This document shows, one piece after another, positions 4,539 to 20,263 of a stretch of DNA of 38,656 bases. The position numbers were made by a program, and so were the translations under genes. The stretch comes from a virus, in IMG/VR virus record IMGVR_UViG_3300030104_002822, positions 1 to 38,656 of that record; one strand, written 5' to 3'. The notes under the pieces were generated by a model. The model ran no database searches, was not told where the DNA came from, and saw only the letters and a list, made by a program, of their open reading frames with translations. The first letter of the stretch is position 1. Every line of letters starts with the position of its first letter.

Positions 4539-7500
4539 ATGCCTACAGTCAAAGTTAACAATCCTTTTGGTCAAGGGACTGAATCTGAAACCGTTGAGTT
4601 TCCAGATTTTTACACTACTTCCATGATGGAAGATGAAGTCCGAGAAAAATATCCAAATAAATATTGGGGAGAAGAAACAGACCAAGAAACAAAAGCGCAT
4701 CCTCCGGGTTTGCTAACAGAATTTTCTGAAGCTTTTGGAGATTCTTGGACTCAAGCTAGTGAAGATTTAGCTATTGGTAGTGCTATATTACGTTCTGACG
4801 ATAGCGAAGCTTTTTCTTTATTGGAGGAAGAATATCAAAATTGGAAAAAATCTCCAGACGATGTTAAAGATTATGAAATTTTATCTGGAGGTTTTGTAGG
4901 CCAAGCTTTTGGAGGAGTTGCTAGAGATGTAATGGCTGGATTAGGTGTTGGCGTTGCAGCATCTACTTTTTCTACTCCAGTTGGAGGTTTGTATGTAGGT
5001 GCTTCTACAGTAGCAACTTTACAAGGCATGACTGCCAAAGGAGGCTCAATGCGAAACACGTACATTGCAGTACGCAATGAAATGGATCGCAATGGAGACG
5101 TAGATTTTGACAAAGCTTATGAAACAGCAAGACGTGTTTCTAATGCTGATGCCGCTTTTGCGGTAGGTGAAGCTGGACTAGCTACGCTAGTTCCTGTTGC
5201 ACGCATGACTCCCGGTTTAGGCACTAGGGCATTATCTCAAGCAGCAACAAAAGGAGCAGCAGAACTTGGCTTTGATGCAACAATTGGTGCAACGGGTTCG
5301 GTTTTATCAGATGTATATGCTGAGTCGGAAGGCATAGACCGAGGTGACATTTTAGAAAATTCATTACGGTCAGCACTACAAGAAATGGTTGTTGGAGGTA
5401 TTCCTGCTGGATTGCGAACATATAGTGAGTACCAAAACATTAGGCAAGAACAAACAGATTTTGTAAATCAAAGATTAAGGGAAGGAGAAGATGTTCTTCG
5501 ACTGCCCGATCCAACGCCTAAAGCCAGACTAGCTCACACGCCTTGGATAGAACACGCCGAAACTCCTGACGAAGTTATTTATCCTGCTGTTAGAACTAGA
5601 AAAGCCGGAGATAATTTTGATTGGACGCAAGAAGATTTAGACAACAATTGGGAATTTTTAGAAGCTCCAGAAAACAGACCAGAAAATCCGACTGTCCGAG
5701 AACTACAAGCAGAGAGAATTAGACAAGCAACAATTAACAGCCCAAACAAAAAAGTTGTAATTGTTCCTGTTTTTTCTGAAGACGGTCAACTTGTAGGCGT
5801 AAGAAAAGCTACTCGGGCAGAAGTAGATCAATTAAAACAAGAAGGGAAAAATCCAGTAGTACATCAAGATAATTTTGAAAACATTATAATAGACCAACCC
5901 GGAGGAGCCGGAGGACAAGTTCTGTTTTCAAAAGGTGGCGGCGTTTTTTACGAGATGAATCCAGATGGAAGTCTTGTAAGTTTAGACCCGGTAAACCGCA
6001 GCGACTATATGGCGGCAAGCGGCGAGTTGCTTCCCTTTAATGAGGCGTTTGTTCCAGACGTAGAAATTGACGAAGGTAATTTAACTTGGAGAGACGTATT
6101 AAAATATTTTCCAGAAGAAGTTTTAGCTAAACCAGAAAACCTTGAAGTAATGACAGGAGGTTTAGGTGAAATTGGAAAAATATTAAAACGAGAATTAGAC
6201 AACAATTTAAAACGGCAAGTAGCTTTAGGTAGAGAAACAGAAGTAACTTCTGGACAATTATCAAAAGAAGCAAAAGAAAAACTATTAGACCAACCAATAC
6301 CTAATGATCTAGACGCTTTTGTAAAAGACCGAATTACTTCAACTCATCCAGAAGCTCCAGACAATAAAAAGCAAAGGTATTTTGCAGTAGAAGGAGATGG
6401 AAAATCTAAAGTCGCAGTCAATGTTTCTAAATTTGGGCATTCAGTAGAAAGAGTTGTTGACGCAGATAAAAGTTTAGCTAGTCAAATTGGAACATTTGAA
6501 AGGCTAGTTGAATTACGGACAGCAGCTAACAATCGAATTGAAAGATTAAAGCGAGAAACAATTAAAAAAATAAAAGATTCTGATGCTACAATTTATACTA
6601 AAGGCGGCCAATGGACAACGCCAGCTACAGCAGAAGACAACATTAATAAATGGCAGGCTCAATTAGCAGACGCGAACAAACAGCTAGAAACCGCCAAAGC
6701 TAAAGGCTCACTAAATGCGAAAATTAAAAGACTAACGAAACAGATTGCAGAGTGGCGAGCTTTATTAGACAAAGCAGCAAAAACATTACCTACTACAAAA
6801 CTCACTCCTCTACCTAAAGCCGAAGACGCTATTTTGTTTGAATTTTTAAGTAGCCCAACTTCTCCTAGTATTGGCCCGTATGCGTGGGATATACACAGAG
6901 ATACTCAAACAAAAGGCATAAACGGCAAAGAGTATCTTGTAGATTCTGGAGAAATGGACGCTTTGCTTAAACTTAAAAGCGCATTAGACGGGGTTCAGTT
7001 TGAAGTTGGCAATAGTCAAATAGAAACGATAGATGGTTTGTTGTCTGATGGAAAAATAACTCCAGATCAAGCTATGGAAATAGCAAACAAAAATGCGTTT
7101 ATTCAAGAAGGGCAATTAGAAACTCAGGTAGACATACAAGAAGGAATAGCTGCGGAAACAGCAGTTACAAAAGTAACAAACACAACTAAATCGTATGATA
7201 GTAAACTTCCAGTAATAGATTTAGAACGATTTGCCGATCTTGCAAAAAACGATTTAGGTCATTACAACCCAGATAAAGGATACCAGTTATCTGGCGGGAC
7301 ATTTACTAAAAACACAGACGAAGCAATTTTTGACAAAGCTTTACAAAAAGCGTTAGCTGACGATATTAGAACAGTCCAATATCGGGTTAAGCAGATAGAA
7401 AAATACAAATGGCTAAAAGCTCAAGTATACATACCTAACAAAAACAACCCTTCGTTTTTAAAAGGCATAGAAGACGTTTTTCCTAAACTGTTTGATGACG

Positions 7501-10500
7501 CAACTATTGAAACCGCAAAAGATTTAGACAATCGTATAAATGAAATTATTGCTGTTTTAGCTACAAAACGACTTAAAGGAAAAACATTAAAAGCGTTAGA
7601 TGACTATGTGTACGAAATATCTGAAGCAAACAACAAAGAAATTGAAGATAAAGCAGCCGGTTATTTTAAAACGTACAATTTAAAACCTAAAACATCAACG
7701 CACACTTTAGATATAACTACTAGTTTTACTAGTTTATTACAAGATTCAAAAACTAAAGAAGAAGGCATAGAACTAGAAGGAAACCATTTTAACAAAGCAC
7801 GTAGAGCTTTTCGCGAAGTGCTTACTGCTTTACAAAATTTAGGCAAACTAGAAGGAACACTATATGCAAACGGGTTTGTTAATTTTTCAGCAATTCCACA
7901 GCTATACAAAGCCCTTGTTAAATTAGCCATTGCTGCAACTAGCATGGGGATTGGAACAGTTAAGGATTTTGCAAATGCGATTCGTCAACCCGCCGACAAT
8001 GCCGCAGTCAAAGAAGCTTTTGAAGATGCAAAAGGAGCAAAGATAAGAACTGGCCCAGCGTTTTCTGAGCGAGTATTGCAGGGGTTACTAGAGATACTTA
8101 AAAAACGGCAAATCAATAAAGCTGAACAAAAGCAAGCAGTTGCTATGGACGGTTGGGTAAAAGCAAGCTGGGATAGTTTTTTAGATCGGCACAGTCTTGA
8201 GCAGTACAAAGAAAAGGGAGAGATTTTACCTCCAGTTAAAACTTTATTTAAACGCACATTTTTAAATGAGTACGTAGATTTGTCGTACATAATGGCTAAA
8301 ATAGCTAAAGGAGGAGAAGTTTCTACAACACCAGAAATAGAAGACATACTTCGCAAAATTCCAGATTCGCAAAATGCGGCTTATCTTATTGATGCATTAG
8401 AAACTGTTGTGGCAGAAAAAGGATTAAACATAGACAAACTGCAAGATAAATTAAAACAAGAATTGCTAGACAACAAAGTTGACGTTAAAAAATTTACTGA
8501 TTATTTAATAGCTAAACACGCTAGTGAACGAAACGATCACGCAGCTAAAATAAATCCAGATGAGTTTAGTGATGTAAATAACAAAGGCGGTTCTGGTATG
8601 GGCAATATAAAAGCGCGAGAAATTCTTAAAGAAGCGCAACGGAACGGAACTCAAAACATCTACGAAAGACTGTATAAAGAATACATAAAGCCGACTAACG
8701 ACAAAACTTTAGACATAGCTTTTGAATCTGGATTAATAGACCAAGAAAACTACAACAGATTAAAATCGTTTTATCAATTTTACGTTCCGTTAAGAGGCAA
8801 AGAAGGCGTTGATGCTTTTATGCAAGCTACTGGAAACGGGGTAGATATACGAGGAGACGAGTTTAAAAGAGCATTAGGTAGGTTTGAAAAGCCAACAGAC
8901 GTAATTCCATACGTTTTTCAGCAGCACAATAATATGTTGTTGCGTGCCGAAAAAGCCAAAGTGATGCAAGCTTTGGCTGAGTTTGTAGCAAAAAATCCAA
9001 ACCCAGATATAAAACTTGCTGAACCAGATTATGTGCGTCGAGTAAAAAACATTAAAGGCGTGCCTAAAGTTAAGTGGATACGAAATCCACATTGGACTAA
9101 CGATACTGATTTGGTGGGTTTTAAAATTGAAGGTAAACAATATTATTTACGGTTTAAAAACAAAGCGTTAGCCCATCGTTTGCGAAACCAAGGTGCTGCT
9201 TCTTCTGGAGTGTTTTTAAGACAAGTAGGCAAGTTTACTAAATTAATGTCTAGGTTAAACACTCAATATAATATTGGGTTTACTTTGCCTAACTTTATTA
9301 GGGACGTAATGTTTGCAAAAATAAATTTGCAAGCAATGGGGCATGAAAAATTAGCTACTGAATTAGCAAATATTTGGAATATGCCGGGAATGCCAGCGAC
9401 AATTGCTGGAAAAAAACAAGGCGCAATTATGAAAGCTTTGGCAGCAACTAGCAGAGCAGAACAACCTGAGTTGCTTGGAAGAGTGTTTACTAGATTGTAT
9501 GGCGACGAAAAAACTAATACTGAATGGGATTCTGCTTATGAAGAAATGAAACAATATGGCGGCAGAATACAATTTAGAGGCATTTACGACATAAGTGATC
9601 GCATAACTGAATTAGAAAAACTGTCCCACAAAATTTCTGCGATAAACGGAACTAAAAACCCTTCGTCAAAAAAACAAGCAATTGGAAAATTAACAAAAGG
9701 GTTAATTGAATTTATTGAAGATGCAAACTCTGCTTTTGAATCTGCTTCTCGATTAGCTACATATAAAGTAGCAAGAGAAAACGGAGCTACTCCACAACAA
9801 GCTGCGTATTTAAGTAGAAACATTTCTATTAACTTTACTAAAAGAGGAACTGCGGGTGCTGGTTTAAACAATTTGTTTATGTTCTACAATGCGTCAGCCC
9901 AAGGTAGCTATCAAGTATTAAACAATTTAAAGAACACTAAAAAAGGAAAAGAAATTGCGTTTCAAATTATTTTTACTGGTTTTACATTGGAATGGTTAAA
10001 CCAAGCTTTGTCTGGAGAAGACGAAAACGGCATTTCTTATTATGAGCAAATTCCAGATTGGAAAAAATCTAGCAACATAATAATTATGAATCCCGTTACT
10101 GGAAAAGACGCTTTAACTATTCCTATGCCTTATGGGTACAATGTTTTACATTATGTAGGACACAAAGCAGCTAAAGTAGCTAAAGGAGGATATTTAGGAT
10201 CAGATCAAATTCCGGGTACTCAAAATCCAGCTTCAGCAATATGGGACATTGGCGAAGCAACTATGGCAGCGTTTAATCCAATTGGAGGTTCTACTAGTGT
10301 AGCAAGAGCCATGACTCCAGACGTAGCTGATGTTGTTGTAGATTTAGCGTCTAACACAGATTGGAAAGGCGATAAAATTATGCCCGAAGCAAGTCCATTT
10401 GAAGCATACCCTAAACCAGATTCACAACAATATTGGTCAACAGTAAATCCTTGGATAAAAGATTTAACTACGTCTTTAAATTCTATAACAGGAGGCAACA

Positions 10501-11012
10501 CAATTGAATCTGGATTTGTTGACGTTTCTCCAGAAACAGTAGAAACGATTTTGTCGCAGTTTACTGGAGGAGCAGGAAACACTATTATTCGTTTAACAGA
10601 TTTAGTAAGACCAGATACTTGGAAAGACGGAGTACCCGAAGGTAACGATTGGCCTGTTGTGCGAAGATTTGTAGCAGCACCTAACAGTTTTTACGGATTA
10701 GAAAAATACAAAAAAGTGCGAGAGCTTTCAGAAAGAGCAGTCGCAGTACATAAAATGTACGTACAAGAAAGACGTAGAGATTTAGCCAGCGAATTTAAAA
10801 GCAAAAACGAAGCTTTGTTTAAAATAAACCCAAGGGTCAAAGCCACTAACTCTAAAATAAGAAGCATCAATAAAAGTATGCGACAAGTTTCGGCTTCGCG
10901 AGCTTTGTCAAACGAAGAAAAAGCAATTAAGCTATCTAAATTAAAAATAGAAAAAAACAACGCTATGAAAACTACATACAGCAAATTCATAGAATTGTTT
11001 GAAGCAGAATAA
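4539..11012 (+). CDS. Giant internal virion / ejection protein (2157 aa) with LPD38-like region
   Basis: This gene fills about one sixth of the genome. Residues about 110-300 are rich in Gly, Ala and Val (GVGVAASTFSTPVGG, GLATLVPVARMTPGLG) and could insert into membranes. Several charged helical and coiled-coil stretches follow. From about 1405 the sequence SFYQFYVPLRGKEG and, around 1550-1610, LMSRLNTQYNIGFTLPNFIR with FMFYNASAQG near 1780 match what I recall of the large polyvalent protein associated domain LPD38 found in phage ejection proteins. The C-terminus is basic and helical. By size and place it is the counterpart of T7 gp16, the ejected protein that spans the envelope. I could not find the catalytic signature of a transglycosylase, so that activity may rest with the lysozyme just downstream. 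An LPD38 profile search would test this. Confidence 0.75.
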   Translation: MPTVKVNNPFGQGTESETVEFPDFYTTSMMEDEVREKYPNKYWGEETDQETKAHPPGLLTEFSEAFGDSWTQASEDLAIGSAILRSDDSEAFSLLEEEYQNWKKSPDDVKDYEILSGGFVGQAFGGVARDVMAGLGVGVAASTFSTPVGGLYVGASTVATLQGMTAKGGSMRNTYIAVRNEMDRNGDVDFDKAYETARRVSNADAAFAVGEAGLATLVPVARMTPGLGTRALSQAATKGAAELGFDATIGATGSVLSDVYAESEGIDRGDILENSLRSALQEMVVGGIPAGLRTYSEYQNIRQEQTDFVNQRLREGEDVLRLPDPTPKARLAHTPWIEHAETPDEVIYPAVRTRKAGDNFDWTQEDLDNNWEFLEAPENRPENPTVRELQAERIRQATINSPNKKVVIVPVFSEDGQLVGVRKATRAEVDQLKQEGKNPVVHQDNFENIIIDQPGGAGGQVLFSKGGGVFYEMNPDGSLVSLDPVNRSDYMAASGELLPFNEAFVPDVEIDEGNLTWRDVLKYFPEEVLAKPENLEVMTGGLGEIGKILKRELDNNLKRQVALGRETEVTSGQLSKEAKEKLLDQPIPNDLDAFVKDRITSTHPEAPDNKKQRYFAVEGDGKSKVAVNVSKFGHSVERVVDADKSLASQIGTFERLVELRTAANNRIERLKRETIKKIKDSDATIYTKGGQWTTPATAEDNINKWQAQLADANKQLETAKAKGSLNAKIKRLTKQIAEWRALLDKAAKTLPTTKLTPLPKAEDAILFEFLSSPTSPSIGPYAWDIHRDTQTKGINGKEYLVDSGEMDALLKLKSALDGVQFEVGNSQIETIDGLLSDGKITPDQAMEIANKNAFIQEGQLETQVDIQEGIAAETAVTKVTNTTKSYDSKLPVIDLERFADLAKNDLGHYNPDKGYQLSGGTFTKNTDEAIFDKALQKALADDIRTVQYRVKQIEKYKWLKAQVYIPNKNNPSFLKGIEDVFPKLFDDATIETAKDLDNRINEIIAVLATKRLKGKTLKALDDYVYEISEANNKEIEDKAAGYFKTYNLKPKTSTHTLDITTSFTSLLQDSKTKEEGIELEGNHFNKARRAFREVLTALQNLGKLEGTLYANGFVNFSAIPQLYKALVKLAIAATSMGIGTVKDFANAIRQPADNAAVKEAFEDAKGAKIRTGPAFSERVLQGLLEILKKRQINKAEQKQAVAMDGWVKASWDSFLDRHSLEQYKEKGEILPPVKTLFKRTFLNEYVDLSYIMAKIAKGGEVSTTPEIEDILRKIPDSQNAAYLIDALETVVAEKGLNIDKLQDKLKQELLDNKVDVKKFTDYLIAKHASERNDHAAKINPDEFSDVNNKGGSGMGNIKAREILKEAQRNGTQNIYERLYKEYIKPTNDKTLDIAFESGLIDQENYNRLKSFYQFYVPLRGKEGVDAFMQATGNGVDIRGDEFKRALGRFEKPTDVIPYVFQQHNNMLLRAEKAKVMQALAEFVAKNPNPDIKLAEPDYVRRVKNIKGVPKVKWIRNPHWTNDTDLVGFKIEGKQYYLRFKNKALAHRLRNQGAASSGVFLRQVGKFTKLMSRLNTQYNIGFTLPNFIRDVMFAKINLQAMGHEKLATELANIWNMPGMPATIAGKKQGAIMKALAATSRAEQPELLGRVFTRLYGDEKTNTEWDSAYEEMKQYGGRIQFRGIYDISDRITELEKLSHKISAINGTKNPSSKKQAIGKLTKGLIEFIEDANSAFESASRLATYKVARENGATPQQAAYLSRNISINFTKRGTAGAGLNNLFMFYNASAQGSYQVLNNLKNTKKGKEIAFQIIFTGFTLEWLNQALSGEDENGISYYEQIPDWKKSSNIIIMNPVTGKDALTIPMPYGYNVLHYVGHKAAKVAKGGYLGSDQIPGTQNPASAIWDIGEATMAAFNPIGGSTSVARAMTPDVADVVVDLASNTDWKGDKIMPEASPFEAYPKPDSQQYWSTVNPWIKDLTTSLNSITGGNTIESGFVDVSPETVETILSQFTGGAGNTIIRLTDLVRPDTWKDGVPEGNDWPVVRRFVAAPNSFYGLEKYKKVRELSERAVAVHKMYVQERRRDLASEFKSKNEALFKINPRVKATNSKIRSINKSMRQVSASRALSNEEKAIKLSKLKIEKNNAMKTTYSKFIELFEAE

Positions 11013-11847: not shown

Positions 11848-12133
11848 CCTTATTGAAGAACACAAATTTCACCCTGACCGCAAATGGAGATTTGATTTTG
11901 CTGACCTTGACACAAAAATTGCAATCGAGATTGAAGGAGGCATCTGGAACCAGAGCCGACATACTCGACCAGCAGGGTTTATCAAGGACTGCGAAAAATA
12001 CAATACTGGCACTATGTTGGGTTGGAGAATATTCCGTTTACCCGGAGTTTGGATCAACCTCGAAACACTAGAAAAAATAAAAGAGTACATAGAATGCCAG
12101 AGAAACACGCAAAGCACTCACCAAGCCAACTAA
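11771..12133 (+). CDS. Vsr/DUF559-like PD-(D/E)XK endonuclease (120 aa)
   Basis: The sequence KWRFDFADLDTKIAIEIEGG with IWNQSRHTRPAGFIKDCEKY and LGWRIFRL is typical of small phage nucleases related to very-short-patch-repair and DUF559 endonucleases. Candidate metal ligands are Glu13 (QLETRF), Asp42 (RFDFA) and Glu53/Glu55 (IEIEGG). The domain fills the whole protein, so it is not truncated. The start overlaps the preceding ribbon-helix-helix gene by 77 bases in another frame, and LETRFLNLWKKL before the nuclease core is normal for the family, which supports a start this early. Its C-terminus overlaps the following gene. Likely a nuclease for recombination, replication or host DNA breakdown. 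Confidence 0.75.
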   Translation: MGASPQPRSQLETRFLNLWKKLHGPDLIEEHKFHPDRKWRFDFADLDTKIAIEIEGGIWNQSRHTRPAGFIKDCEKYNTGTMLGWRIFRLPGVWINLETLEKIKEYIECQRNTQSTHQAN

Positions 12134-13185
12134 AATATAAATCCTTCTGTCCTAACTGGGACAACGATAAAGATCAACCAACTTTTGCCGCCGATCTAGG
12201 CACTAAACTCCATTTTGGAATGGAACAATATGTTGAGTATTTAATTGGCGATATTAAGGAGTTTGATTTACACGCCTATCCTGCCGAAGAACAAGCACTA
12301 CTAGCTTGGTGCATGAAAATCGTAGAACCGTATGTTCGTCAGGCAGAGGAAACACACGTAGAATGTGAGGTTCATATTCCAGAAGTAACTTGGGGAACGT
12401 GTGATCTTATTTTAAGAACTGGCAGTCACTTGACTATGATGGATTATAAATTTGGTCAAGGCATCATCGACCATCCATCTGAAAATTACCAAGCCAGAGC
12501 ATACGCACTTGGAGCAGTACACGAGTTTAAAGACATAGAAACCGTAGAGTTTCACTTCCTTATTCCTAAACGTGATGAACACCTTCAACACTCTTGGGAA
12601 GCAAGAGAGATATTTTTATGGTTTGATGAGTTTGATGAAATAGTTCAAAAAGCAGATGACCCAAACGCTTCAAATAATCCGTCATTAGACACTTGTGTTT
12701 ATTGTGGGAACAAAGCAGTTTGCCCGAATGTTATGAGTACAGCAGTTGAAGTAGCTAATAGATATGAAGGTTTGCCCCTTCCAGTTGAACCTAATTTAAA
12801 CGCCTTGACTTCCCCGGAAGACATGGGACGTGCCTTACAGATTGCTGCCGTGATGGAACGGTTTAGTCGCAGCGTAAAAGCAAGAGCGTTAGAAATGGCA
12901 TTGGATGGAGAACAGATTCCCGGCTACGAATTAAAGGTCAGAAAAGGGGCGAGGAAAGTAGACGATTTATTGGCAGCGTTCGCAGCGTTAAGTCCGAACG
13001 TACTACAACTGGAGGATTTTCTTCCTGCTTGTAAAATTTCAATTACTGAATTGGAACGTGCCGTTAAGGATGTTGCTCCAAGAGGAGAGAAACAAAAATT
13101 TGCTGATGCGGTTTTAGGCGACCTAGCGAGTGCTGGGATTGTCTCGCAGAGCAATGAAATCCCATATTTGGGTAAAACAAAATAA
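12094..13185 (+). CDS. PD-(D/E)XK exonuclease with AddB/Cas4-type iron-sulfur cluster pattern (DUF2800-like, 363 aa)
   Basis: From the ATG chosen here the motifs are: SPSQLKYKSFCP with Cys19, a conserved Gly-Thr-Lys-Leu-His (36-40), Asp104 in GTCDLI, MMDYKFG with Asp117 and Lys119, Gln133 and Tyr137 in NYQARAYALG, then CVYCGNKAVC with Cys201, Cys204 and Cys210. Asp-(X)n-Asp-X-Lys plus motif IV Gln is the RecB-type nuclease core, and one N-terminal Cys plus CX2CX5C is the iron-sulfur staple of AddB, Cas4 and Dna2. The C-terminal third is helical, as in DUF2800 proteins. The longer frame upstream only adds shadow sequence. It pairs with the next gene, probably in recombination or DNA end processing. 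Confidence 0.75.
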   Translation: MPEKHAKHSPSQLKYKSFCPNWDNDKDQPTFAADLGTKLHFGMEQYVEYLIGDIKEFDLHAYPAEEQALLAWCMKIVEPYVRQAEETHVECEVHIPEVTWGTCDLILRTGSHLTMMDYKFGQGIIDHPSENYQARAYALGAVHEFKDIETVEFHFLIPKRDEHLQHSWEAREIFLWFDEFDEIVQKADDPNASNNPSLDTCVYCGNKAVCPNVMSTAVEVANRYEGLPLPVEPNLNALTSPEDMGRALQIAAVMERFSRSVKARALEMALDGEQIPGYELKVRKGARKVDDLLAAFAALSPNVLQLEDFLPACKISITELERAVKDVAPRGEKQKFADAVLGDLASAGIVSQSNEIPYLGKTK

Positions 13186-14617: not shown

Positions 14618-16390
14618 ATGGCTACTGCAATAGATTTTGAAACTTACTACGACAAAAATTACTCAATTAAAAATTTGGGTAATCAAGGGTACGTAGCACA
14701 TAAAGACTTTGATCCCTACATGGTTTCTCTCGTTAATCCTGAGAGGGGAATTAAGTACGTAGGTCATCCGAAACACGCCCCTTGGGATAAGCTGCCGGAC
14801 GTGCCACACTTTGTAGCACATAACGCCGGATTTGATTCCACGGTATTCCAAGGAGCGCAACGAAAGGGCTACATACCTGACAGATTTGCCCCTAAATGGG
14901 ACTGTACTGCCAACCTATCCGTATATATCCAAGCACCTAGATCGTTAGCTGGAGTCTCGGAGCAGATGTTTGGAATCAAACCGAACAAAACGATTCGCGA
15001 CGAAATGAAAGGTAGGACATTGTCTGTCCTATCAGAGAGCGCAGAAGCCGATTTAAAACAATACGCACTTGACGATTCTAATTTGTGTCTCCGAGTTTGG
15101 GACACATATAGGAATTACTGGCCGAAAGAGGAAAGAGTAATTGCCAGACACACAATGGAGAGTGGTCAACGGGGCGTAGCAATTAACCTCCAGTATCTAT
15201 GGAAAGGATTGCAGGACTTAAAAGAACGCAAATATGAAGCCGAGAAACTGATCCCTTGGTCATCGGACAGTCCTCCTACGTCAGCGATCTGTTTGAAGGA
15301 GTACTGTAAGAACGAAGGAATCCGCGCACCGAAAAGCACAGCAGTAGGCAACGAGGATTGCGAAAAATGGGAAGCGGAGTTTGCGGATCGTTACCCAGTA
15401 GTTCAAGCGTTGAGAGATTGGAGAAGTGCTAACCGGCTTGTCCGATTGTTGGAACTTATTGCTGAACGTCAGAACGGGACAAACAGCTTAATTGAACCCG
15501 GGCTTCTCCCCTTTAATCTAAAATACTTTGGAGCAACGCTAACTGGACGTTGGAGTGGTGATGCCAAAATTAACTTACAGAACATACCTCGCGGGGAAAC
15601 TTTCGGAGTTGACGTGCGAAAGATGTTCGTGCCGAGAAATGGTAAGAAATTTATCATAGCTGATCTAGCGCAGATTGAACCTCGTTGTTTAGCTTGGACG
15701 TGTGGAGATACTCAACTACTTGACTACGTTAAGCAGGGTAAAGACATATACGAAGCTCATGCTTTATCTACAATGGGAGTTAAGCGAGTCACTAAACAGG
15801 CTAGGCAACTGGCTAAAATACGTGTGCTTGGATTGGGATATGGTTGCGGAGCTAATAAGTTTGCTAAAATTGCTGAGAATTGGGGCATTGAAATGTCCTT
15901 AACAGAAGCAAAGAAGGTTGTAAGGAATTACAGAAAAGACAACCGATCCATATTGGACTTCTGGGCTAAATGTGAGGAGGATTTTGTAGCAAACGTAGGG
16001 CAAGACCATAGGTATCGACTGCCTAGCGGCAGATGGATCACCTATTTTAATGTGTTTAGCCAAGAGAAACTTGGATGGGGCGAAAACTACATTAACCATT
16101 TGGCAGCTATAACTAGAGGAGCCAAACCCCGGTCATTTTACGGGGGTAAGATTTGTGAGAACATTATCCAAGCTACTGCCAGAGATGTTTTTGCAGACGC
16201 ATATTTTAGAATACTGAAATCCGGGTTTAACATAATCTGGACAGTACATGACGAATTTATTGTCGAGGTCGATGAAAACGACTCATCTGCAAGGGAAGAA
16301 ATCGAGAGATTAATGTCGATAACCCCCGAGTGGCTTGAAGGATGTCCCATCGGAGCCGAGGCAATAGAAGCGAAACACTACACAAAATGA
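14618..16390 (+). CDS. polA: DNA polymerase, family A, with 3'-5' exonuclease domain (590 aa)
   Basis: The exonuclease domain shows motif I IDFET (Asp6, Glu8), motif II AHNAGFD (Asn69, Asp73) and motif III YALDD (Tyr149, Asp153). The polymerase domain shows the QNIPRG entry, motif A IADLAQIEPR (Asp349, Glu354), the O-helix ARQLAKIRVLGLGYG (Lys400, Tyr408) and motif C WTVHDEF (His544, Asp545, Glu546). All catalytic residues are present. At 590 residues it lacks the 5'-nuclease domain, as phage replicases do. The position equal to E. coli Phe762 is Leu404. The protein replicates the phage genome with the primase and helicase encoded just downstream. It overlaps the next gene by ATGA. Confidence 0.95.
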   Translation: MATAIDFETYYDKNYSIKNLGNQGYVAHKDFDPYMVSLVNPERGIKYVGHPKHAPWDKLPDVPHFVAHNAGFDSTVFQGAQRKGYIPDRFAPKWDCTANLSVYIQAPRSLAGVSEQMFGIKPNKTIRDEMKGRTLSVLSESAEADLKQYALDDSNLCLRVWDTYRNYWPKEERVIARHTMESGQRGVAINLQYLWKGLQDLKERKYEAEKLIPWSSDSPPTSAICLKEYCKNEGIRAPKSTAVGNEDCEKWEAEFADRYPVVQALRDWRSANRLVRLLELIAERQNGTNSLIEPGLLPFNLKYFGATLTGRWSGDAKINLQNIPRGETFGVDVRKMFVPRNGKKFIIADLAQIEPRCLAWTCGDTQLLDYVKQGKDIYEAHALSTMGVKRVTKQARQLAKIRVLGLGYGCGANKFAKIAENWGIEMSLTEAKKVVRNYRKDNRSILDFWAKCEEDFVANVGQDHRYRLPSGRWITYFNVFSQEKLGWGENYINHLAAITRGAKPRSFYGGKICENIIQATARDVFADAYFRILKSGFNIIWTVHDEFIVEVDENDSSAREEIERLMSITPEWLEGCPIGAEAIEAKHYTK

Positions 16391-16782: not shown

Positions 16783-16961
16783 AAGCAACTACGTCAATCA
16801 ACGGAAATGTTGTGTCGGTCAATCTGCCGGAAGGCGCAAGGAACTGGTCTAAATTAGACAGTCCAAGTGAGACTGAAAACAGCAACAACTCAGTACGACA
16901 GGATAGTGTACATAAAGCACTAACTCCTCGGATTATTAAAAAGAAAGTTGTTAGATATTAA
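16779..16961 (+). CDS. Hypothetical small protein (60 aa)
   Basis: The ATG overlaps the preceding stop and is preceded by a good ribosome site (GGGAGG, 8 bases upstream), which decides this start over the longer frame. The product has a short beta-type N-terminus (MKATTSINGNVVSVNLPEGA), a polar Ser/Asn-rich linker and a basic C-terminus (PRIIKKKVVRY). The stop overlaps the primase start (TAATG). I recognise no family. It is probably a small partner of the replication proteins around it. Confidence 0.65.
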   Translation: MKATTSINGNVVSVNLPEGARNWSKLDSPSETENSNNSVRQDSVHKALTPRIIKKKVVRY

Positions 16962-17866
16962 TGAACACATACACACGAGGAGAACGTCGGACGCTTAAAG
17001 CAGTTAATAAGTTGGATCTAAACCCCTGCCCGGATTCGGGAGAAGGCGTGCATAGTTGGATATGGCACGTAGCTTCCACATATCATGCGGCTGGAGTAGG
17101 TATGGAAGAGGCGAAGGACTATTGTGACCTTCATGCCACTCGTGCCTTACAACCTAACGAAGTAGAAAACGCATTCATTAGTCTCCAAAACAGGAGCAAC
17201 ATTGAACGCAATAGGTGGCCTAAAAAGTCAGCCTATTTAACGGGCGTTGCAATTGAAGAAGCAAAACGTGAAGCGGGATTAGCGGCTGAAATAATCGGTT
17301 GCTTAAACTCAGGAGGTCTGGGCGAAATAGAAACGCACAGAATTCTTGAGCGACTCTATCCAGACAATCCCCTAATATGTTGCGGCAAGACAACTTGGTT
17401 AACTCAAACAAAGCCTTTGTCGGAATTTACGGCAAAGCACTTATCCGAGTGCCAATTTATCGTACCTAATCCTATGAGCAGCGAAACTGGGACAACCCAA
17501 GCAGGGAAGCCAAGTAATCGCAGCTTACAAAACACCGGCCCGAGACAATACCTTGTCGTGGAGTTCGATGAAGGATCGCACGAGGATCATGCCGCGCTTC
17601 TACAATGCCTTGACGGGTATGAAGACTGCCGACTATGCCTAGCACTAACGTCTGGGAACAAGTCGCTACATGGATGGTTTGACGTGCGTAGGTTCGATGA
17701 GGAACGTGCCAAAACATTCTTCAAGAAAGCTCTCATGCTTGGCGCGGATCGTGCCACATGGACGAGATCGCAGTTGGTCAGGATGCCGAACGGCACTAGA
17801 GTAATCAAAACTACTGACCAAGGAGTTCTAACAAGCAAACAAACAGTACTACACTACCATGTTTAA
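16961..17866 (+). CDS. Archaeo-eukaryotic-type (AEP) primase-like protein (301 aa)
   Basis: The C-terminal half carries the three AEP signatures: VVEFDEG (Glu201, Asp203), SGNKSLHGW (Ser235, His237) and a basic block RSQLVRMPNGTR after FFKKALMLGADRATW. These form the metal- and nucleotide-binding centre that makes primers on single-stranded DNA. The N-terminal half is helical (WIWHVASTYHAAGVGMEEAK) and resembles the primase-associated region seen in phage and plasmid primases. In many mobile elements such a domain is fused to an SF3 or D5-type helicase; here the helicase is a separate gene overlapping by 8 bases, so the pair probably acts as one complex. Confidence 0.75.
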   Translation: MNTYTRGERRTLKAVNKLDLNPCPDSGEGVHSWIWHVASTYHAAGVGMEEAKDYCDLHATRALQPNEVENAFISLQNRSNIERNRWPKKSAYLTGVAIEEAKREAGLAAEIIGCLNSGGLGEIETHRILERLYPDNPLICCGKTTWLTQTKPLSEFTAKHLSECQFIVPNPMSSETGTTQAGKPSNRSLQNTGPRQYLVVEFDEGSHEDHAALLQCLDGYEDCRLCLALTSGNKSLHGWFDVRRFDEERAKTFFKKALMLGADRATWTRSQLVRMPNGTRVIKTTDQGVLTSKQTVLHYHV

Positions 17867-19151
17867 ACTTGTTGAACTTGACCACAGAATACCGTTGCCG
17901 GTCTGGTACTATCCGTATAGTGAAAAGTACTATGTCCAAAACGATATGAGGGAATACATTCCGTACAGTAAATCCACTCTAAAACTTATCCTACGTAAAT
18001 GGGGAATGAGTACACGCGCTCAAGACGATGAGCCGTTGTCGGAAGTGGACGAACTGTTCGCAGATGTTTCGTACAATAAAACGGTGTCGTTTGCCGGACG
18101 TTTAGCCGGGGCCAGAACTGGTTGCTACTGGATAAATGGCAAACGCATACTCGTAACGCAAAGTCCAAACGTAATAGCCGCAAAACCAAACGGGGAATTC
18201 CCTATGATACAATCCGTAATAGATCAACTGTTCAATTGTGACATAGATCAAAGACCCTACATATATGGTTGGCTTAAAAAAGGACGGCAAGCGTTAGTCC
18301 AAGCAGACCCTTTACCGGGACAAGCTCTCATCCTAGCAGGGCCGAGAAACGCCGGTAAAAATCTGTTTCAAGACCTAGTAACTGAAATTCTAGGTGGACG
18401 TGCCGAAAAACCATACCGCTACATGATCGGGAAAACCGAATTCAATAGCGACTTGTTTGGTGCGGAACATTTGTGTATCGCAGATGAAGTGCCGTTCCAT
18501 GATATGGCTTCACGCCGAGTGTTTGGATCTAAAATAAAAGATATGTGCGTCAACTCCCTACAGAGTTGTCACGGCAAACACAAGGAAGCGTTGTCTCTTG
18601 TCCCGTTGTGGAGATTGTCGGTGAGTGTGAATGACGAGCCAGAAAACCTTGTCATGTTGCCTCCACTAGACGATTCCATCGCTGACAAACTCATCATGGT
18701 GCGCGTGGATCGTGCGAAAATGCCGATGCCTACTGATACTCCAGAGGGAAGGAGGAAGTTTTGGGATGCCGTATGTGCCGAACTGCCTTACTTCGTTAAT
18801 TTTTTGGATGATTATGAGATTCCAGAAGATATGAAGGACTCCCGGTTTGGTATTAAGGCATTCCAGCATCCAGCACTCGTAGAAGTACTCCAAGATATGT
18901 CTCACGAGGTTAGACTGCTTGAGTTGATGGATACAATTGTCGTGCCGAGTAGTGGAAGTTGGAAGGGTACGAAGGAAGAGTTGGAAACGGCACTTCTTGA
19001 AGACCCGACTTACAAGCGACAAGTTGAACGGCTATTGTACTATCCAACTGCTCTCCAGACATACTTGCGGAGGTTAGCCAAGACGAGGCCGGAGCGGGTT
19101 AGACATTTTCGGTCTAGCGGCAAAAGTAAGTGGGAAGTTGAGTCCAAATGA
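17859..19151 (+). CDS. SF3/D5-like replicative helicase (430 aa)
   Basis: A P-loop ATPase core is visible: Walker A GPRNAGKN (161-168), Walker B HLCIADE (204-210) and a sensor segment LSVSVNDEP with Asn258, the order and spacing of superfamily 3 helicases as found in phage and plasmid replication proteins. The Walker A is unusual in having Asn where Ser or Thr normally binds magnesium. Before the ATPase is a 150-residue domain with many aromatic residues (WYYPYSEKYYVQND), and after it a helical C-terminus that may bind DNA. It follows the primase with an 8-base overlap and ends just before the candidate origin. Confidence 0.75.
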   Translation: MFKLVELDHRIPLPVWYYPYSEKYYVQNDMREYIPYSKSTLKLILRKWGMSTRAQDDEPLSEVDELFADVSYNKTVSFAGRLAGARTGCYWINGKRILVTQSPNVIAAKPNGEFPMIQSVIDQLFNCDIDQRPYIYGWLKKGRQALVQADPLPGQALILAGPRNAGKNLFQDLVTEILGGRAEKPYRYMIGKTEFNSDLFGAEHLCIADEVPFHDMASRRVFGSKIKDMCVNSLQSCHGKHKEALSLVPLWRLSVSVNDEPENLVMLPPLDDSIADKLIMVRVDRAKMPMPTDTPEGRRKFWDAVCAELPYFVNFLDDYEIPEDMKDSRFGIKAFQHPALVEVLQDMSHEVRLLELMDTIVVPSSGSWKGTKEELETALLEDPTYKRQVERLLYYPTALQTYLRRLAKTRPERVRHFRSSGKSKWEVESK

Positions 19152-19174
19152 TTGGACTGCCATAAGTTTAGTAA

Positions 19175-19310
19175 CCATATAGTGTCGTCAAGTGCTTCAA
19201 TTTTGACCTTTCACAAAAAAAGTAGTGTGAATAACTATGGATATTTGTGAATAAGTCGGTGAAAATTTTGCACAAACCTTGGAATTGAAGCACTTGACGA
19301 CACTATGTGG
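19175..19310. repeat. Candidate replication origin: long inverted repeat around a DnaA-box cluster
   Basis: The two 24-base arms, 19179-19202 and 19283-19306, are exact reverse complements. With one G-U pair at 19178/19307 the RNA stem grows to 28 pairs (19175-19202 with 19283-19310). The 80-base centre is A+T-rich and holds three sequences matching the DnaA box TTWTNCACA. No gene covers the 217-base gap. It lies between the helicase gene and a gene for a DnaA DNA-binding domain. Together this is what an initiator-controlled origin would look like. Other readings are a large transcript hairpin or an integrase/resolvase site, but no such enzyme is encoded. Confidence 0.6.
19226..19274. promoter_or_regulatory. 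dnaA boxes: Three DnaA boxes (two minus-oriented, one plus-oriented)
   Basis: TGTGAATAA occurs at 19226-19234 and 19246-19254; its complement TTATTCACA fits TTWTNCACA. The two are exactly 20 bases apart, about two helical turns, so they face the same side of the DNA. TTTTGCACA at 19266-19274 fits the same consensus on the other strand. A fourth site, CCTTTCACA at 19207, is degenerate. Confidence 0.6.
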
Positions 19311-19325
19311 CCTAAACTGGCATTT

Positions 19326-19354
19326 TTGACATGAAAAATAGCAAAATAAGCATT
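19326..19354 (+). promoter_or_regulatory. Possible promoter after the candidate origin
   Basis: TTGACA at 19326-19331 begins TTGACATGAAAA, the same 12-mer as the -35 region of the promoter at 11616. The -10 is poor (TAAGCA after 15 bases is the best I can find), so this is weak or needs an activator. It would serve the small genes that end with the DnaA-like gene. Confidence 0.3.
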
Positions 19355-19368
19355 AAACTAAAAATCCC

Positions 19369-19527
19369 ATGCGCGAACTACTAAATACGTTGTTTTTGGC
19401 ACTAGATGAGGTTGCTAAAATAGGATGTAACAAGACCATTCGGATAATTGAGAACGCCATTAAACAGGCACAAACCATAGAAAAAGAACATGACAGATCA
19501 AGAGATAAGGAACAGAGCGGTAGCTGA
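19369..19527 (+). CDS. Possible small protein (52 aa)
   Basis: An open frame of 52 codons starts at ATG in the gap after the candidate origin and overlaps the next gene by 38 bases. The product starts with an amphipathic helix (MRELLNTLFLALDEVAKIG), then CNKTIRIIENAIKQAQTIEKE, and ends in a charged tail. It has no visible ribosome binding site. The regular helical pattern looks protein-like, but the length alone does not prove coding. Confidence 0.4.
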   Translation: MRELLNTLFLALDEVAKIGCNKTIRIIENAIKQAQTIEKEHDRSRDKEQSGS

Positions 19528-19723
19528 TTTTGTTGCCGAGGGAACGGCGAAATTCAACGCCGGTATTCAAGAACACAATCCCAACGGGGATAAAGGGCTG
19601 GATCGAATGAGCAAAGCACAGAAACTCAAAGCAGTAAAAGAAGAGATACTGGATTTGTGGTTTTATGTCACAGCTTTGGCGATTGAGGTAGAACGTGATG
19701 CAGATAAAAAGGACAATGCCTAG
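19490..19723 (+). CDS. Small MazG-like nucleotide pyrophosphohydrolase candidate (77 aa)
   Basis: The segment KFNAGIQEHNPNGDKGLDRM followed by KAVKEEILDLWFYVTALAIE resembles small phage MazG-type proteins, which carry a K(F/Y)NxGxxEH start and an EExxD helix with acidic metal ligands. Here EEILD would supply Glu and Asp. At 77 residues it is a one-domain, minimal form. MazG-like enzymes hydrolyse nucleoside triphosphates or alarmones, and phages may use them to adjust the nucleotide pool. The glycine and histidine of the first motif and the acidic helix are seen; the activity is inferred. It overlaps the next gene by 8 bases. Confidence 0.5.
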   Translation: MTDQEIRNRAVADFVAEGTAKFNAGIQEHNPNGDKGLDRMSKAQKLKAVKEEILDLWFYVTALAIEVERDADKKDNA

Positions 19724-19970
19724 AACATACAGTAGGAAATATCTAGATTTGGATGTAAACAAATCCGACCTAGACAAGAAGTTCAAGAGGTTTGCTAGAA
19801 GGCACGGGCTTAAACCTAGCGAAGTAGGTCACCACGAGAGTCGCACAATGGCTTATAAGGTTGATTTTCCGCATAAAGCAGCTAGGACAGCCGAGGTAAG
19901 GAAACGGTACGGTAGTCCTGACTATGTTAGGCGTAAGTATTGTGAATTAGCACGAGAGGTTTCTAGTTAA
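19716..19970 (+). CDS. Hypothetical basic protein (84 aa)
   Basis: I choose this ATG because AAAAAGG lies five bases upstream; the frame itself opens earlier at a GTG. The product is small and strongly basic with few hydrophobic runs (MPRTYSRKYLDLDVNKSDL, KKFKRFARRHGLKPSEVGHH, AEVRKRYGSPDYVRRKYC). It could be a nucleic-acid-binding protein. The last codons contain one copy of the 12-base repeat CGAGAGGTTTCT, translated as part of AREVSS. It ends eight bases before the DnaA-like gene. Confidence 0.6.
   Translation: MPRTYSRKYLDLDVNKSDLDKKFKRFARRHGLKPSEVGHHESRTMAYKVDFPHKAARTAEVRKRYGSPDYVRRKYCELAREVSS
19953..19964 (+). repeat. 12-base repeat CGAGAGGTTTCT, copy 2
   Basis: The exact repeat lies inside the last codons of the preceding gene and 14 bases before the ATG of the DnaA-like gene, the only recognisable candidate for a ribosome site or operator in front of it. 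Confidence 0.5.
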
Positions 19971-19978
19971 CAAGCAGC

Positions 19979-20263
19979 ATGAAACAGCGAACGATAGCGG
20001 AAACTACGAGCGAGTTCTACGGGGTTGATCTGGATGAAATGAAAAGTCCTGACCAGCATCGAAGAGTAGTTTGGCCTCGTAATGTGTGTATGTATCTGGC
20101 TGCCGATCTCAAGATTAAAAAAAGCGAGATAGGTAGATTCTGGAACCGGGATCGAACAATCGTGTATAACGCATTGAAGAAGGTCGGAGGAGAGATTGAA
20201 ACAGATAAGTCTAAACTAAATGAGGTGAGAAAAATTGTCAGCTTGTTGAAGAAAAGACTGTAA
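19979..20263 (+). CDS. Stand-alone DnaA domain IV (DnaA-box-binding) protein (94 aa)
   Basis: The protein aligns along its length with the C-terminal DNA-binding domain of the bacterial initiator DnaA: IAETTSEFYGVDLDEMKS (helices 1-2), RRVVWPRNVCMYLAADL (matching ARPRQMAMALAKEL of E. coli), IKKSEIGRFWNRDRTIVYNA (matching the SLPEIG...GRDHTTVLHA signature) and a final helix. The signature His is Arg (RDRTIV). The AAA+ ATPase and helicase-loading domains are absent, so it can bind DnaA boxes but cannot melt an origin on its own. It lies 0.7 kb downstream of a DnaA-box cluster. It may help mark the phage origin, compete with host DnaA, or regulate transcription. Confidence 0.85.
   Translation: MKQRTIAETTSEFYGVDLDEMKSPDQHRRVVWPRNVCMYLAADLKIKKSEIGRFWNRDRTIVYNALKKVGGEIETDKSKLNEVRKIVSLLKKRL

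Follow-up and report, generated by a model that had tools for sequence, protein, structure and literature searches.

Mirrored repeats behind an SF3 helicase gene form a probable replication origin in a phage family apparently of Verrucomicrobiota

In SaPI Rep and SCCmec Cch2, the C-terminal domain binds iterons located just downstream of the proteins' own genes (PMC7581432). The Cch2 iterons carry AAGTG, and binding of Cch2 was left intact by deletion of inverted repeats but abolished by deletion of the direct repeats (PMC7581432). PICI origins always contain two sets of iterons around an AT-rich region, directly behind rep, an iteron-AT-rich-iteron layout reported to be present in no other known bacterial replicon (PMC6092414). 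The Sulfolobus plasmid pRN1 has a proven origin that has been described as a stem-loop, with a 21-nt stem and a 58-nt loop; it is needed for replication, suffices when combined with the replication genes, works when moved, and is conserved in structure but not in sequence, and its authors saw no iterons (PMC4234260). Among phages, a 302-bp noncoding element acts as an origin in Sfi21, a relative of the Streptococcus thermophilus phage Sfi19 (PMC6356513).

The DNA analyzed here (the window) comprises the 38,656 nucleotides of the IMG/VR virus record IMGVR_UViG_3300030104_002822. It contains one long near-perfect inverted repeat, and no second one was found within its 38.7 kb. The left arm (19175..19202, + strand) is mirrored by the right arm (19283..19310, − strand) over 28 nt with a single T-G mismatch; the pairing is exact over 24 nt (19179-19202/19283-19306) and, with gaps, reaches 19165-19202/19283-19318. 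Between the arms lies an 80-nt spacer of 33% GC (19203..19282), a putative unwinding element. The inverted-repeat alignment score was 55, compared to a best score of 27 among 60 shuffles. No open reading frame of at least 60 aa lies within 19152-19459 on either strand. The sequence-only reading had placed the repeat exactly there, with 24 exact base pairs extendable to 28, and had called the block noncoding, and both points were borne out. It had also suggested GC skew as a check, which showed no informative switch around 19.2 kb; this flat profile is weak evidence because nearly all genes lie on one strand, and a dip at 20-23 kb overlaps minus-strand open reading frames. Tandem Repeats Finder gave no output for the block, and Rfam gave no credible match, returning microRNA hairpin models alone, far below threshold. 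A reading of the block as a terminator was dropped, as none was called here and the 80-nt loop is too long.

The gene immediately upstream (17859..19151, + strand) encodes a 430-aa D5/P4-family SF3 helicase, which we propose as the initiator, and its stop codon is separated by 27 bp from the start of the 24-bp repeat. The protein gave a sub-threshold match to TIGR01613, the P4-family primase C-terminal model, and matched PHROG 1156, a DNA primase PHROG; solved structures searched by sequence yielded no match. Its AlphaFold model (pLDDT 88.6) matched the C-terminal region (CTR) of the NrS-1 polymerase (Z 20) and SaPI5 PriRep (Z 16.8) in the PDB, both over almost the full length of the model, followed by poxvirus D5/E5 and then by ASFV PrimPol. 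At the C-terminus (residues about 372-428), the model shows three helices with a wing of two strands, a predicted winged-helix arrangement such as is expected of the SF3 helicase at a PICI/SaPI-type origin. The gene before it (16961..17866, + strand) encodes a 301-aa protein that is probably an archaeo-eukaryotic-type primase (AEP), as indicated by an AEP-like SGNKSLHGWF motif kept in the alignment of relatives; its fold matched the CAPP Prim-Pol domain weakly (E 0.17). The repeat had been described from the letters as lying directly after primase-helicase genes, and the position holds, with the qualification that the adjoining gene is the SF3/D5-type helicase and the likely primase lies one gene earlier. 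A family A DNA polymerase gene, annotated from searches, occupies 14618..16390 (+ strand).

We searched for relatives of the helicase in viral contigs and MAG contigs, many of the records found being contig fragments. A significant inverted repeat, scoring beyond all 60 control shuffles, was present in 18 of the 22 helicase-carrying loci, window included, and starts at the helicase stop codon or a short distance behind it. No significant repeat was seen by this shuffle test in L028, L059, L061 and L063, and none lies right after the stop codon in the group L044-L052, which is 39% identical. In three relatives (L004, L005 and L006), the order of helicase gene, repeat and homologue of a 77-aa open reading frame is the same as in the window. 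The arm sequences themselves vary widely (GGGCGGCAA, AGCACCC, AGTGCCC, AGGGCCC, GTGCTACC and others), and do so even between relatives with 66-87% identical helicases. The block thus lies, as in PICI/SaPI-type origins, immediately 3' of the gene for the putative initiator helicase, and it equally has the form of a pRN1-type origin, that is, of a stem-loop of about 100 nt behind a replication gene, with its sequence unconserved.

Across the family, the arms are built of tandem 9-bp units, with an identity of 0.70 at lag 9 and of 0.16-0.33 at other lags. These units stand inverted on both sides of the core, which measures about 45-95 bp, is AT-rich in most loci (an exception being L062, with 56% GC) and carries at its edges short motifs common to the relatives; in the clade L019-L024, the core is almost constant and the units differ. 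With arm registers set by hand, mirroring between the arms amounted to 98% in the unit cores and 80% in the 3-bp linkers (p=1.5e-6). Since arm mismatches fall in the linkers and spare the unit cores, the arms appear to be read as double-stranded iterons; a base-pairing function gives no reason for such a 9-bp tolerance pattern, which therefore favors units read by their sequence. In the register given by alignment with the relatives, the left arm of the window carries unit 1, AGTGTCGTC (19181-19189, + strand), and the inner unit 2, AAGTGCTTC (19190-19198, + strand), with the core-edge motif AATT next to it. Here the mirror is perfect and the 9-bp repetition is weak, with an identity of 0.44 between units 1 and 2 in the hand-set register and of 0.30 in the simple lag-9 test. 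Mirrored iterons around an AT-rich core are thus found family-wide, and because the within-arm repetition is weak in the window, it is homology to the relatives, in position and in register, that lets its own arms be read as iterons. In L017, L018 and L023, irregular arrays of additional 9-bp AGCACCC units follow directly behind the helicase stop codon, beyond the mirrored pair, which gives the impression that the iterons expand and move. Downstream of the origin region of L020, L022 and L024, the same noncoding stretch holds a second repeated element, GTCAGTAATCGGTTCGATTACCGACCGATACACG, with variants.

In the relatives, the repeats seem to change in step with the protein tail that is their probable reader. 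Helicases of the clade L019/L020/L021/L022/L024 are about 98% identical outside the C-terminal tail, where 13 of 28 residues vary, compared to 9 of 394 elsewhere (p=7.6e-12). Over the last 28 codons, clade pairs other than L019/L021 differ in 25-43% of residues, compared to about 1% elsewhere, and the fraction of synonymous codon differences shows no rise there, so that the changes are ones that alter amino acids. L019 and L021 share both the C-terminus and the iterons. L022 and L024 are an exception, having nearly equal iterons and 32% of C-terminal residues different. Among 15 members, iteron distance (from hand-set registers) correlated with C-terminal distance when the rest of the protein was controlled for (partial r 0.39, permutation p 0.002), but not with the rest of the protein when the tail was controlled for (partial r 0.02). 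The variable residues map to the last helix and the wing of the predicted winged helix. Given this co-diversification and the published role of the C-terminus in SaPI Rep and Cch2, the helicase tail is the likely reader of the arms. Separately, the next open reading frame, directly behind the helicase stop codon (3242), in L046 and L049, and also in L047 and L052, ends like the helicase C-terminus (ARFNPHLVYKAKSNGYTKWIIAPP, AKRNPSLVKKKKSNGYVKWLI), as if it were a stand-alone copy of the DNA-reading tail; it is possibly an origin-binding regulator.

The locus resembles the pri-rep-ori modules of PICIs and SaPIs (SaPI5 PriRep, SaPIbov1 and the E. coli PICIs) in having the putative origin directly 3' of an SF3 helicase gene, two iteron sets around an AT-rich core, and a primase upstream, which may be separate or fused. 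The C-terminal domain reads the iterons in those elements, and we propose the same for the window helicase. Unlike in PICI/SaPI origins, the units are 9 bp long and stand in mirrored pairs, the core holds DnaA boxes, and the virus has head, portal, terminase and family A polymerase genes of its own. With the pRN1 family, the locus shares an inverted repeat behind a gene for AEP, SF3 and winged-helix functions and a structure kept despite sequence change, although pRN1 is an archaeal plasmid with a fused primase-helicase. Its stem can itself be read as two 9-bp units (ATGTCCATAGTGTCCA), and for the stems of pRN1, pHEN7 and pRN2 pooled with repeats of lactic acid bacterial plasmids, the lag-9 identity was 0.62 (permutation p 5e-5). 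SCCmec resembles the window in its D5-type helicase, Cch2, with a family A polymerase gene nearby, and differs in having three direct repeats on a single side; AAGTG is shared by the Cch2 iteron and the inner unit of the window, which may be a coincidence. In Sfi19, mirrored short iterons surround an AT-rich core downstream of a DUF5906 helicase gene, but the unit spacing is 8 bp and the host belongs to the Firmicutes. In a small comparison set outside the family, picked from search matches, the mirrored layout with a 9-bp lag was found behind related helicases in pRN1, pRN2, pHEN7 and Mycobacterium phage Hurricane, as well as in plasmids of Pediococcus/Loigolactobacillus, Lentilactobacillus and Lactiplantibacillus; by the score used it was absent from phages Vitas, Eraser, NASRA1, bIL310 and BIP-1, and it was not found in Haloterrigena, Halomarina or a Streptomyces plasmid. 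Because its architecture matches these known systems, we consider the block a member of the PICI/pRN1-like kind of origin, in a lineage for which the phage collection contains no close relative.

Taken over all loci compared, these data make it very probable that the block is the replication origin of the phage, serving its own SF3 helicase-initiator encoded immediately upstream. Most likely, it is an origin whose mirrored iterons are read by the helicase tail rather than by DnaA. The candidate DnaA-type origin of the sequence-only reading stands as an origin, with good support from where it lies, how the iterons are built, its conservation and the equivalents known, but not in the agency ascribed to DnaA. 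We consider it distinctly unlikely that the core is opened by host DnaA or the phage domain IV protein bound to the boxes, with the arms in support. The core does hold the three strict DnaA boxes reported earlier, TTATTCACA at 19226..19234 and 19246..19254 (both − strand) and TTTTGCACA at 19266..19274 (+ strand), which form a cluster such as a DnaA-dependent origin should have. Their starts are spaced by exactly 20 bp, and they are strongly non-random, with 3 observed compared to 0.06 expected and three boxes reached in 0 of 20,000 core shuffles; over the whole window, strict boxes are not enriched (7 compared to 4.8 expected). A gene for a 94-aa DnaA domain IV-like protein (DnaA_C; PF08299, E 3e-16), a possible accessory factor, lies at 19979..20263 (+ strand); it is indeed downstream, but not just behind the repeat as had been noted, since it starts about 670 bp away and two small open reading frames, of 77 and 91 aa, intervene. 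The relatives, however, keep the repeat and lose the boxes, a result that had been named beforehand as one that would refute the idea of DnaA marking or opening the DNA: no strict box was present in any relative's core, so that the box-plus-repeat layout did not recur. A DnaA_C gene was detected in only 2 of the 17 records searched, most of them fragments; in L005, the second record with such a gene, the core is free of boxes and one strict box lies about 40 bp beyond the right arm. Small proteins of the DnaA domain IV type, 52-76% identical to the 94-aa protein, are encoded at seven further loci in other viral contigs (L007-L013), and the stretches examined contained no cluster of strict boxes and no homologue of the queried window proteins, helicase included. 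In the sequences compared, it is the repeat, not the boxes, that is conserved. As neither the boxes nor DnaA_C are conserved, we rejected DnaA as the main initiator; the boxes may be a lineage-specific addition and an accessory feature at most, and because they are so strongly non-random, DnaA could have an auxiliary role in this particular phage.

It also seems unlikely that the block works through pairing of its arms into a hairpin or cruciform, on single-stranded DNA or on RNA, whether to provide an origin of the structural type argued for in pRN1, a site for RNase III or a folded end of a transcript. Such a function would agree with the strong predicted folding (z −8.7 in the window and −3.5 to −10.3 in relatives), with the perfect mirror of the window arms despite their weak 9-bp repetition, and with a mild excess of T-G type arm mismatches on the + strand. 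Pairing alone, however, would not predict a family-wide 9-bp repetition or a clustering of mismatches at linker positions, and it leaves the coupling to the helicase C-terminus unexplained. The length of the loop and the lack of a terminator call and of a credible Rfam match also argue against it, as does the SCCmec precedent, in which the direct repeats and not the inverted repeats are needed for Cch2 binding. It is highly improbable that the repeat arose by chance, or is a recombination site or the end of a mobile element, with no role in replication. Such sites are also marked by long inverted repeats, but 18 of 22 loci keep the repeat at one position behind this gene, which disfavors such a reading, and no integrase was found among the scanned open reading frames. 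Mirrored iterons serving the adjacent helicase are the better reading of the arms.

From the comparison, we infer binding, melting and a bidirectional start. The C-terminal winged-helix domain would bind the arm units as double-stranded DNA, and the mirrored arms would let two hexamers assemble facing each other; these would melt the AT-rich core that separates the arms and depart in opposite directions. The neighboring AEP-like primase and the family A polymerase would then begin synthesis. The three boxes in the core would be at most an aid, for example by recruiting host DnaA or the phage domain IV protein to the opened core.

These results point to the probable origin, and the probable initiator, of replication in a phage family that is apparently of Verrucomicrobiota. 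Near-identical helicases with differing tails and target repeats constitute a natural series for the specificity of SF3 initiators, which makes their origin specificity directly testable. The results also suggest a single architecture for origins that have so far been described separately as stem-loops and as iterons. As a tentative generalization, an AT-rich core between mirrored pairs of short iterons, mostly of 9 bp, might be common to the replicons of D5/P4-family SF3 helicases, from archaeal plasmids to phages, with phages co-diversifying iterons and winged-helix tail under selection. In that case, what is called a stem-loop in pRN1 and iterons in PICIs would be the same thing, and each origin-helicase pair would be a private lock and key, the selection being, for example, for escape from origin decoys, satellites or co-infecting relatives.

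The window encodes candidates for its own terminase, portal, scaffold and major head protein, and it therefore does not look like a PICI satellite, which borrows the structural proteins of a helper. Consistent with the integrase-free genome assumed earlier, no integrase was detected among the products of the 28 larger open reading frames, which were scanned with PHROGs. Nothing similar to the window DNA was found among 50,697 phage records, and the helicase protein had no match in this collection. Its relatives in MAG contigs (including L059-L064) are mostly labeled Verrucomicrobiota, which suggests this group as the hosts of the phage family. The 91-aa protein encoded between the origin and the DnaA-domain gene (19695-19970) has a pattern, FKRFARRHGLKPSEVGHHESRTMAYKV, loosely similar to the helicase C-terminus and may itself be a small, related DNA-binding protein. 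Its homologue in L004 sits upstream of the polymerase gene. Elsewhere in the window, 4539-11012 encodes a 2157-aa protein whose only matches, over the C-terminal 880 residues, are to very large PHROG families without known function. The 387-aa product of 12022-13185 belongs to an exonuclease family (PHROG 69) and matches Cas4 weakly, below threshold.
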